Source: Halorarum salinum (GTDB lineage Archaea; Halobacteriota; Halobacteria; Halobacteriales; Haloferacaceae). Taken from it: a stretch of 64,000 nt of DNA. The translations under genes were made by a program, and so were the position numbers. How positions within the stretch are numbered: the stretch's first letter is position 1; every line of letters starts with the position of its first letter. Below are positions 31,915 through 59,313 of this stretch, in pieces. The notes below the pieces were generated by a model. It saw only the letters and a program-made list of their open reading frames with translations, was not told the origin of the DNA and searched no databases. The DNA is taken from positions 1,550,001 to 1,614,000 of the forward strand of contig NZ_CP058579.1 of assembly GCF_013402875.1 (NCBI RefSeq), written 5' to 3'.

Positions 31915-33003
31915 CTACCGGACCGGCACGCTGTCGGCGGTGTCGGGCCGCTCGCGGAGTTCGACCGGCACCGTGACCTCGTCCAGGACGCCCTCGCGGA
32001 GCACGGTCACCTCGACCGACTCGCCCGGCTCGGTGTCGACGATGAGCCGGCGGATCAGTTCCTCGGCCGAACGGACCGGCTCGCCGCCGAGGCCGACGAC
32101 GACGTCGCCCCCGACCGGCACCTCGCGACCCCGGACGCGGGCGGTCCGGTCACAGCCCCGGAGCCCGTCGTCGCCGGCCTCGACGACCAGCACGCCGCCC
32201 GGTTCCGGGAGCCCGTTCGCCGCCGCGACGGCCGGCGTCGCGTCCAGCGTCCGGGCCCGCAGGTACGAGTGCCGGTAGACGCCGTCGGCGACGAGGCCGG
32301 GGACGACCCGGTTCACCAGCCGCGAGGAGACGGCGAACCCGATGTTGTCGCCGCCCCTCGCGCGGTTGACCCCGACGACCTCGTAGGCGGCCTCCGGGGC
32401 CGTCGTCCCGTCGTCCCCCGCGTCCTCGTCCCCCGCGTTCCCGTCGCCCGCGTCATCCGCCGCGAAACCGTCCGACGGGCCGTCCCCGGACCCCTCGCCC
32501 ACCACGTCCCGCCTGCGCGCGACCAGCGGCCCGCCGCTGTTGCCGGGGTTGATGGGGGCGTCCGTCTGCACGACGTCGGGGATGGAGAAGCCGCCCCGCG
32601 TCGGCATCGACCGGTTCACGCCGGAGACGATGCCCGCCGAGACGGAGCCGTCGAGCCCCATCGGGTTGCCCAGCGCGGCGACCGGCCGGCCCGGTTCGGG
32701 GACGTCGTCGGCGACCGCGAGCGGCGGGGCGTCGTCGGGGAGGTCCGGCACCCGGACGACCGCGAGGTCGGTGTAGGCGTCGCTGCCGACGACGCGCCCG
32801 GCGCGCCAGCGGCCGTCCGCGAGGCGGACGTGGACGTCGCGCTCGTCGCGGACGACGTGGTCGTTCGTCACGACGTGGCGCCGGTCGTAGACGAACCCCG
32901 ATCCCGCGCCGCGAGCGCCCGAGGAGGAGCCCACGTAGACGGAGACGACGGAGGGGGCGACCGCGTCGTAGAGCCGTTCGAAATCGAGAGAGTGCGTGAT
33001 CAT
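31915..33003 (-). CDS. HtrA/DegP-like serine protease (S1C) with PDZ domain
   Basis: This 362-residue protease has the triad His in RRHVVTNDHVVRD (about 51), Asp in AYTDLAVVRVPD (about 80) and Ser in APINPGNSGGPLVA (about 155). The C-terminal PDZ domain spans about 255-350 (GGVLVVEAGDDGLRG; GDVVVGLGGEPVRSAEELIR). No signal peptide or membrane helix is visible, so it may work in the cytoplasm on misfolded proteins. An acidic, Gly-rich insert of about 45 residues follows the catalytic Ser motif, probably a surface loop. It is convergent with the monooxygenase gene. Confidence 0.88.
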   Translation of the reverse strand: MITHSLDFERLYDAVAPSVVSVYVGSSSGARGAGSGFVYDRRHVVTNDHVVRDERDVHVRLADGRWRAGRVVGSDAYTDLAVVRVPDLPDDAPPLAVADDVPEPGRPVAALGNPMGLDGSVSAGIVSGVNRSMPTRGGFSIPDVVQTDAPINPGNSGGPLVARRRDVVGEGSGDGPSDGFAADDAGDGNAGDEDAGDDGTTAPEAAYEVVGVNRARGGDNIGFAVSSRLVNRVVPGLVADGVYRHSYLRARTLDATPAVAAANGLPEPGGVLVVEAGDDGLRGCDRTARVRGREVPVGGDVVVGLGGEPVRSAEELIRRLIVDTEPGESVEVTVLREGVLDEVTVPVELRERPDTADSVPVR

Positions 33004-33049
33004 CCCGGATCTACGAGGGCGATTCGCATACCTCGCTCGCGGTCTGGGC

Positions 33050-33262
33050 GGGGTCGCGCACGACCGATGCTACGTTTCGGACGGGTCGGGGTTCGCCTCG
33101 AAATCCCCGCGGCGTTCGGCTTCGATGTCAGTTCAGCGTCGTCGCTGCAGTGCCCGACAGCCGCGGCCCCTTTCAGTCCCACCCGACCGCACCGCCGCCT
33201 CGCCCTCCCGTACCTCGGAGCACGCTCCTCGGAACTCACCCTCGTGGTTCGAAAATCGATGA
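33050..33262 (-). repeat. Mosaic of family B and family C repeat segments
   Basis: Read on the minus strand, 33150-33215 contains GGGAGGGCGAGG and GGGACTGAAAGGGGCCGCG, the core also found at about 25800-25850. Next to it, CCTCGGAGCACGCTCCTCGG and AACTCACCCTCG (33212-33243, plus strand) match the end of the third family C copy near 61220-61260. Two repeat families are therefore joined here. No gene is seen. Confidence 0.6.
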
Positions 33263-33273
33263 CTTTCGACAGT

Positions 33274-33527
33274 ACGGGAACTCGGGGAGTTCCCGTCAGC
33301 GGCCAGATTCCTACGGAATCTGGCAGCATCACGAAAGGCGCAAAGCGCCTTTCGAACGGCTCCGCTCGCGTGAGCAGCCTCCTGCGCTCCTCGCCTCGGG
33401 CGCTCACTCCGTTCACTCCCTCTGCTGCGGTGTCCGCGGGCGACTTGCGGGTCGCCCGCGGGCTAGCGAGACCGGCGGTCCCGCCGTGCTCGTCCCTCGC
33501 ACGAGCGGCCGCGCTCCGCGCGGCCGC
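33274..33527. repeat. Array of five perfect hairpins
   Basis: Five exact inverted repeats occur in 254 nt. ACGGGAACT/AGTTCCCGT: 33274-33282 and 33288-33296. GCCAGATTCC/GGAATCTGGC: 33302-33311 and 33315-33324. CGAAAGGCGC/GCGCCTTTCG: 33332-33341 and 33345-33354. CGCGGGCGAC/GTCGCCCGCG: 33435-33444 and 33451-33460. GCGGCCGCGC/GCGCGGCCGC: 33505-33514 and 33518-33527. Loops are 3-6 nt. The array lies between the protease start and the KDPG aldolase promoter. Confidence 0.85.
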
Positions 33528-33580
33528 CGCGCGCCGGTCGGAGTGCCCTTCGTCCCCCGCCGACTCACCGGGACCCCCGC

Positions 33581-33588
33581 GTTTATTG
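33581..33588 (+). promoter_or_regulatory. TATA-like box for KDPG aldolase gene
   Basis: GTTTATTG ends 23 nt before ATG 33612. The spacing supports a leaderless transcript starting after the hairpin array. Confidence 0.6.
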
Positions 33589-33611
33589 ACGCCCCGAACG
33601 TTCACTCGCGC

Positions 33612-34244
33612 ATGAGTACGCTCGATGCGCTGCGGGAGAGCGGGGTCGTCGCCGTGCTTCGCGGCGCGGAGTCGGAGACGGTCGTAGACACGGCCGAGGC
33701 GCTCGTCGAGGGCGGCGTCACCGCGCTGGAGGTGACCGCCGACACGGCCGGATCGACCGAGATGATCCGGACGCTCGCCGGGGAACTGGGCGACGAGGTG
33801 CTCGTCGGGGCGGGGACGGTGCTCGACGCCGCGACGGCACAGTCGGCCATCGCGGCCGGCGCGGAGTTCGTCGTCTCCCCCTCGTTCCACGAGGACGTGG
33901 TGGAGACGTGCAACCGGTACGGCGTCCTCGTCGCGCCGGGCGTCATGACTCCGACCGAGGCCGTCGAGGCGTACGAGGCGGGCGCGGACGTGGTGAAGGT
34001 GTTCCCCGCGGCCACGCTCGGGCCCGACCACCTCGCCGCGATGAAGGGCCCGCTCCCCCAGATCCCGATGCTTCCGACGGGCGGCGTCTCGCCCGAAAAC
34101 GCGGGCGACTACGTCGAGGCCGGGGCGCTCGCGGTCGGCGCCGGGTCCGCGCTCGTGGACCGCGACGCGGTCGAGGCCGGCGAGTTCGGGGCGATCACCG
34201 AGCGTGCGCGGACGTTCCGCGGCGTGGTCGAGGACGCGCGGTAG
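33612..34244 (+). CDS. eda: 2-dehydro-3-deoxy-phosphogluconate aldolase (class I)
   Basis: This 210-residue aldolase cleaves KDPG to pyruvate and glyceraldehyde 3-phosphate. In haloarchaea that is the last step of the semi-phosphorylative Entner-Doudoroff pathway. The Eda features are VVAVLRGAESETVVDTAEAL, GVTALEVTADT with the catalytic Glu, LVGAGTVLDAATA, SPSFHEDVVE and the Schiff-base lysine in GADVVKVFPAATLGP. It ends with the phosphate-binding MLPTGGVSPENAGDYVEAG. KHG aldolase activity is also usual for the family. Confidence 0.92.
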   Translation: MSTLDALRESGVVAVLRGAESETVVDTAEALVEGGVTALEVTADTAGSTEMIRTLAGELGDEVLVGAGTVLDAATAQSAIAAGAEFVVSPSFHEDVVETCNRYGVLVAPGVMTPTEAVEAYEAGADVVKVFPAATLGPDHLAAMKGPLPQIPMLPTGGVSPENAGDYVEAGALAVGAGSALVDRDAVEAGEFGAITERARTFRGVVEDAR

Positions 34245-59215: not shown

Positions 59216-59313
59216 TGGCTCTCCGTAGCGGCAGCCGGACCCTGGTGGACATGAAAAGGGCGAGCGGCCGCGGAGCGGCCGCGAGGGCTTTCCGGACGGA
59301 GGTGGATCGCTGA
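59215..59313 (+). CDS. 32-codon bridging ORF on a palindromic insert in the nuo operon
   Basis: ATG at 59215 overlaps the nuoCD stop (TGATG). The frame ends in TGA overlapping the nuoH ATG at 59313, also as TGATG. The product would be MALRSGSRTLVDMKRASGRG, then AAARAFRTEVDR: basic, unlike its neighbours, and probably not a subunit. The DNA is palindromic (AGCGGCCGCGGAGCGGCCGC). A 19-nt sequence, GGAGGTGGACCGGTGATGG, is repeated 98 nt later with two mismatches, carrying the ribosome-binding site. The ORF may exist only to keep ribosomes moving into nuoH. Confidence 0.6.
   Translation: MALRSGSRTLVDMKRASGRGAAARAFRTEVDR

Follow-up and report, generated by a model that had tools for sequence, protein, structure and literature searches.

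A hairpin cluster in a haloarchaeal chromosome as a nest of dispersed repeats holding a probable mobile DNA element of four hairpins

What does a dense cluster of perfect hairpins in the gap between two haloarchaeal genes represent: one structured RNA, or a composite of mobile palindromes? The question arises from a window of 64 kb (the whole stretch of Halorarum salinum DNA that was analysed, 64,000 nucleotides), in which a preliminary description had listed five inverted repeats within 254 bp. All five are present, with stems of 10-11 bp, slightly longer than the 9-10 bp originally given, and the spacing of 5 and 7 nt among the first three was reported correctly. Chance is indeed an unlikely source, as had been argued: outside the array the window holds 43 other hairpins with a stem of at least 8 bp and a loop of 3-8 nt, and since only 8 of these (counted by hand) have a stem of at least 9 bp and a loop of 3-6 nt, about 0.03 would be expected per 254 bp against the five observed. 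Folding z-scores reach -6.0 on the plus strand and -7.0 on the minus strand, with none of 100 shuffles equally stable. The stems are not one repeat copied, as the description had it, yet every hairpin belongs to some dispersed repeat, and the five do not form a single unit (Table 1). The proposed resemblance of the fifth palindrome to an insert in the nuo operon is weak, its 23 bases being unmatched elsewhere in the window at up to three mismatches; a palindrome at 59264-59282, GCGGCCGC-GGA-GCGGCCGC, perhaps the insert that was meant, has just an 8-bp core in common with it.

Table 1. Features of the hairpin cluster and its surroundings (window positions; h1-h4 are the hairpins of the mobile element, and ordinals refer to the preliminary description)
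Feature	Positions	Strand	Stem; loop	Basis or remark
HtrA-like serine protease gene	31915..33003	-		PF13365 2e-31; neighbour
Nest of repeats, 507 bp	33067..33573			missing from the protease-aldolase gap in congener G001
Outer dispersed repeat H1, left part (...CCCCTTTCAGTCCCACCC...CACCCTCCC)	33136..33209	+		blastn copies, some without H2; edges set by eye
Inner repeat H2, left part (TACCTCGGAGCACGCTCCTCGGAACTCACCCTCG)	33210..33244	+		found without the hairpin element in L030, L050, L053, L054
Mobile hairpin element, 115 bp, TGGTTCGAAA...TTTCGAACGG	33245..33359	+		filled versus empty H2 copies, further copies, order-wide relatives
Hairpin h1	33249-33269	+	9 bp with one mismatch; 3	overlooked in the preliminary description; same element as h2-h4
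Hairpin h2 (first)	33274-33296	+	10 bp; 3	in the element
Hairpin h3 (second)	33302-33324	+	10 bp; 3	in the element
Hairpin h4 (third)	33332-33354	+	10 bp; 3	in the element
Inner repeat H2, right part (CTCCGCTCGCGTGAG)	33360..33374	+		filled/empty copy comparison
Outer repeat H1, right part, with hairpin 33434-33461	33375..33482	+		many blastn breakpoints at 33375
Fourth hairpin	33434-33461		11 bp; 6	inside H1 right part
GC-rich dispersed repeat with hairpin 33505-33527	33483..33540	+		several copies, 80-100% identity, in G000, G001, G002
Fifth hairpin	33505-33527		10 bp; 3	inside the GC-rich dispersed repeat
KDPG/KHG aldolase gene	33612..34244	+		PF01081 4e-48, TIGR01182 above cut-off; neighbour, outside the element

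In the congener G001, the corresponding locus (L065) aligns to window positions 32067-33066 and 33574-34244 with 21 bp between them, so that the intervening segment has no counterpart there and was therefore inserted here or lost from G001. A query spanning 33240-33612 returned 28 matches each from the window's own genome and from congener G002, and alignment of the retrieved loci resolved three layers, with the element lying in H2 and H2 in H1. The sequence of H1 runs ..CCCCTTTCAGTCCCACCC..CACCCTCCC and continues with CAGCCTCCTGCGCTCC..., H2 being inserted at that junction, while H2 runs TACCTCGGAGC..CACCCTCG and continues with CTCCGCTCGCGTGAG, the junction in this case receiving the element. 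Empty H2 copies read CACCCTCG^CTCCGCTCG and filled ones CACCCTCG (TGGTTCGAA...TTCGAACGA) CTCCGCTCG, the two differing by exactly the element. The fourth and fifth hairpins come from the older H1 and from a further dispersed repeat, not from the element. The earlier suggestion of a composite of mobile palindromes is thus supported, in the form of a mobile element nested in two dispersed repeats. H1 (CCCCTTTCAGTCCCACCC..) also occurs widely, and Halorubrum has a similar host that ends in ..GGCTGGGGCTTTGGAGGTGTT. The loop of the fifth hairpin, TCC in the window, is GGA in a G002 copy (L045), a loop flip outside the element. A link between the element and the KDPG aldolase gene was considered and rejected: the nest is missing at the G001 locus, and in G002 an element does lie upstream of the aldolase gene but with another upstream neighbourhood, so the two have no constant link.

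The element itself begins with TGGTTCGA and ends with TCGAACGG. Fourteen further copies with both ends are present in three congener genomes, and with a covariance model the window's genome gives nine hits at E<=5e-13. At E<=0.01, hits occur in 308 of 392 Halobacteriales genomes, many of them weak, so that 308 serves as an upper guide; seven family-level groups (f1, f4, f5, f7, f12, f14, f17) contain hits at E<=1e-15. Relatives are mostly 109-126 bp long and carry inverted terminal repeats T(G/C)GTTCGA; the copies counted are related to one another and hence are not independent events. An exact-pattern scan of a named species collection gave 119 stretches, with 70 of the 80 titled ones haloarchaeal; the first hairpin is formed in 96 of the 119 and in none of the 10 with non-haloarchaeal titles, these 10 being among the 23 that failed the h1 stem test. 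Haloarchaeal plasmids also bear the element or parts of it. Among viruses, two IMG/VR pattern matches without hairpins are attributable to chance, and no phage record matched. The fetched loci yielded no autonomous, longer element with these ends: left half-ends lacking a right counterpart within 200 bp proved to be short, diverged copies or chance matches. Another hairpin array is dispersed as well, in several copies per genome between genes (L082-L087 in G000, L060-L063 in G001); its linkers (CAGCATTACGGG.., CAGCAGTGGGATTCC..) resemble those of the element, but it has no TGGTTCGA ends.

The element is dispersed and inserts precisely at CG^CNNCG without target duplication, often within other non-coding repeats. 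The copies, whose exact ends are identical, lie in 63 different flank contexts; the flank consensus is in part preset, as the GT beside the left end was fixed by the pattern scan itself. Long clean flanks (150 clean bases each side) are available for 58 copies. For one Halorubrum copy (L112, G335), 13 homologous places in the genus are precisely empty, reading ..gcg^cag.., again without target duplication, and a fourteenth (L311, G371) holds a two-hairpin version that is without the two inner hairpins. Matching target sequence, gttcaaacg^cgaca, likewise holds two hairpins in L338, on a Haladaptatus plasmid, and four in L115. Insertion inside near-terminal palindromes of PATE or IS605 elements is clear in L175, L243 and L335-L337; overall, palindromes are not enriched as targets, with 8 of 58 sites reaching a stem score of at least 7 against 5.8% of control sites. 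Some near-identical G002 copies have the H2 host in common, and in that genome the composite rather than the element alone may have spread.

Hairpins are gained, lost and swapped as modules. End hairpins are drawn from a small stock (CGAGAGAGC, CGAGACGCC, CGAAAGGCGC, CGAAAGACGC, CGAAACGGC and CGAAAATC), and whole end hairpins are swapped between copies with identical inner hairpins; part of the covariation is therefore hairpin replacement, not successive point changes. The number of hairpins per version varies: two in L311 and L338, three in L076, four, and apparently six in L122, where the inner part is enlarged. These numbers refer to perfect stems only, and L076, L120, L122, L124 and L232 were read by eye. 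The lengthened inner hairpin series of L122 (1501-1660) is a sign that the array can grow. In L120, L124 and L232 the two inner hairpins lie in the opposite orientation with respect to the ends, and the right end is altered (CTCTCGTA.. in L124).

The stems stay complementary while their sequence changes, and the triloops are closed by C-G and strand-symmetric. Across 15 aligned copies (13 distinct), 96.5% of cells in the four helices are paired, and 37 cells have changed on both sides compared with 13.6 in shuffles. Of 39 predicted pairs in 31 diverse copies, five of which are long-range and probably spurious, 23 show double changes (a hand-summed 197 cells), while the helices hold only 5 G-U and 5 A-C cells. 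A helix formed by RNA could accommodate numerous G-U pairs on its strand. The C-G closing pair, with C on the 5' side, is found in 342 of 346 perfect hairpins, and 210 of the 346 have the loop GNA or its complement TNC, where random triplets would give one eighth; these counts omit 7 of the 108 parsed elements (L039, L040, L042, L043 and L052, with an even-length h1, as well as L136 and L163). C-GNA-G is an exceptionally stable DNA minihairpin. On the element's plus strand the two forms are balanced (GNA 109, TNC 107 among 360 loops), and the counts of loop triplets correlate with those of their reverse complements at 0.89, or at 0.78 without GNA/TNC (0 of 5000 permutations); no such correlation holds for the reverse or the complement (-0.14 and -0.16). 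In one Halorubrum subfamily, identical perfect stems carry AAA or TTT, ACC or GGT, TTC or GAA. Loops are therefore used, or flipped, regardless of strand, and a nearly missing G-U class equal to A-C together with strand-symmetric loops leads us to read the covarying stems as DNA rather than RNA. The symmetry could also come from loops that are free apart from closing stability. Loops of three nucleotides occur in 210 of 224 hairpins with a stem of at least 8 bp. In these loci, hairpins other than those of the parsed elements show the C-closing habit as well (221 of 264 triloops); some of these may be undetected relatives, but the habit is shared beyond the element.

No mobilising enzyme was found. 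Y1_Tnp (PF01797), sought with the Pfam model alone at E<=1e-5, was not found in G000, G002, G015, G066 or G089, all of which have strong copies and which include the window's genome. The combination of zero target duplication and hairpins suggests a single-strand route like that of IS200/IS605. Haloquadratum walsbyi (G007) has a two-hairpin relative as a constant component of both a PATE and a tnpB element (PF01385, PF07282), and in three plasmid records two-hairpin copies lie within the CCTCGGGG..CCCCGAGG hairpin, which, judged from the Haloquadratum copies, we would read as an IS605-type end. One Haloquadratum tnpB (L267, 1528-2451) has last codons that extend into the two-hairpin array. In TnpB systems, the region of the last tnpB codons is usually part of the guide RNA. 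With no Y1 transposase and no longer element found, and no palindrome enrichment, the data point to a DNA-hairpin element moved by an unknown enzyme, for which hairpin shape would be the signal.

The readings that compete with such an element differ in what they make of the same data. That four hairpins are kept for the function of a structured noncoding RNA, as the preliminary description had proposed, would fit the strong compensatory change and a fold that is stable on both strands. Such changes, which that description had tied to an RNA, are indeed found in homologous copies, yet they are strand-symmetric and G-U-poor; Rfam gives no match at E<=1, the covariance model scores on the mirror strand too, the loops show no strand preference, and the element is precisely inserted and missing at homologous places. 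The RNA proposal is thus left unsupported and was set aside as highly improbable, and the hairpin cluster is unlikely to be an RNA gene, although it may be transcribed. One could instead derive the element from IS200/IS605, as a short PATE-like form that a Y1 transposase (TnpA) acting in trans mobilises in single-stranded form; this would explain the lack of target duplication, the near-end palindromes and the insertion into other elements, as well as the two-hairpin relatives in the Haloquadratum PATE and tnpB element and in the IS605-like end hairpin of three plasmids. Against this, the five strong-copy genomes listed above gave no Y1_Tnp, on which ground the Y1 transposase was rejected as mobiliser, past supply being possible, and the ends form an inverted repeat, which PATEs by definition do not have; we regard this derivation as unlikely.

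It is also conceivable that nothing is mobile here and that old hairpins are carried in host repeats and spread by recombination between those, as the several G002 copies in a common H2 host and the two-hairpin arrays travelling with a Haloquadratum PATE might suggest; about 60 different flanks with identical exact ends, and precise empty sites, make this very unlikely. Membership in the SMR-A repeats of Haloquadratum is a question of filing, compatible with a mobile hairpin element, and we think it rather unlikely. It is favoured by the shared size class and inverted terminal repeat, by the lack of target duplication and of any gene, and by insertion into other mobile elements, at times in the loops of IS605-type end hairpins, while palindrome targeting is not general and one presumed SMR-A (L289) has unrelated ends, the comparison resting otherwise on description. 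Direct filing as SMR-A was rejected, because the Haloquadratum hits are a two-hairpin array fixed in a PATE and the presumed SMR-A sits in one of its hairpins. L289 (near 1500) is a repeat of about 120 bp with inverted ends ATCGCTCATCTGTAG/CTACAGATGAGCGAT within the PATE two-hairpin array, presumably an SMR-A by a name that we infer.

Taken as a whole, the segment 33245-33359 is probably a copy of a non-autonomous haloarchaeal mobile DNA element made of four hairpins and moved by an unknown enzyme. In such an element the hairpins would act as DNA, either single-stranded or as cruciforms, and would form the substrate of a trans-acting recombinase or endonuclease. The putative enzyme would cut at the TGGTTCGA/TCGAACGA ends and join them into the target, and the perfect arms and flipped loops may be maintained either when a cruciform is extruded and the strand switches from one arm to the other, or when sequence is copied from other hairpins. 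More tentatively, and with less confidence than doubt, one may see here a widespread class of archaeal mobile DNA consisting of hairpins only, in which a non-Y1 enzyme reads hairpin shape, two-way triloops testify to extruded cruciforms and switching strands in vivo, and hairpins are exchanged as cassettes. If the mobile hairpin reading is true, the haloarchaea would have an order-wide mobile element of DNA hairpins only, with precisely defined ends and target and unambiguous empty sites, and both the mover of transposase-free haloarchaeal repeats and in vivo cruciform formation in archaeal chromosomes would become testable questions. Its interest would lie in the mobiliser and in the sign of cruciform dynamics. 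The element also carries a warning that strong covariation, the usual mark of an RNA gene, can come from DNA palindromes, G-U scarcity and strand symmetry of loops being features that separate the two.

As far as the literature searched extends, the family is new, though of a known kind, its nearest counterparts being the SMR-A and PATE repeats (SMR-A by description) and organellar hairpin elements, in sources consulted in part. No other description of such an element was found in the literature on haloarchaeal repeats that lies outside subscription journals; PMC11431627 mentions an HqIRS element once. MITEs have their ends in common with a full-length transposon and usually duplicate their target; the element makes no target duplication and, among the fetched loci, has no longer element with the same ends. 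Hairpins in chloroplast genomes undergo small loop inversions, and perfect hairpins there are found with loops in both orientations. Such two-way loops are like those of the haloarchaeal element but lie outside any mobile element.

According to the part of the Haloquadratum walsbyi study consulted (PMC3119063), SMR-A are non-coding repeats of about 110 bp with inverted terminal repeats and no target duplication that insert in near-terminal palindromes of PATE/IS605 elements, their mobilisation being called 'enigmatic', whereas PATEs are non-coding relatives of IS605-type transposons with near-end palindromes but without inverted terminal repeats. Compared by description with that part of the source, the haloarchaeal element is like SMR-A in size, inverted ends, lack of duplication, non-coding nature, insertion into mobile elements and the lack of an identified mobiliser; it differs in that SMR-A target PATE/IS605 palindromes while it lies mostly elsewhere, and the same part of the source mentions no hairpin array for SMR-A (PMC3119063). 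With PATEs it shares near-terminal palindromes, the lack of target duplication and of coding capacity, and a two-hairpin relative lies inside one Haloquadratum PATE, but its ends are inverted, and it is present in genomes that gave no Y1 transposase (PMC3119063, in the part consulted).

REP sequences of the GTAG and CGTC types are likewise palindromic and extragenic, occur in pairs or arrays and show complementary stem changes, and the CGTC type lacks a dedicated transposase (PMC3733652). The units described there are single, measure 20-40 bp, carry a tag and have loops of 2-20 or 4-5 bases (CGTC type: stem 8-9 bp, loop 4-5), whereas the haloarchaeal element is a fixed multi-hairpin array with triloops and inverted ends (PMC3733652). 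Closest in style are the mitochondrial hairpin elements of Allomyces and sponges, which in the sections consulted are mobile hairpin arrays with variable loops and no known enzyme (PMC2800124, PMC7218506). Those belong to organelles and usually have one or two hairpins, the sponge elements with conserved stems and variation only in the loops, while the haloarchaeal element has four hairpins, lockstep stem changes and two-way loops and resides in archaeal chromosomes (PMC2800124, PMC7218506). For the Allomyces double-hairpin elements, the same sections report no target duplication (PMC2800124, PMC7218506), and a mobile, variable hairpin pair without duplication is what the two-hairpin L311 represents at the four-hairpin L112 site, a likeness of kind for which homology is not claimed.
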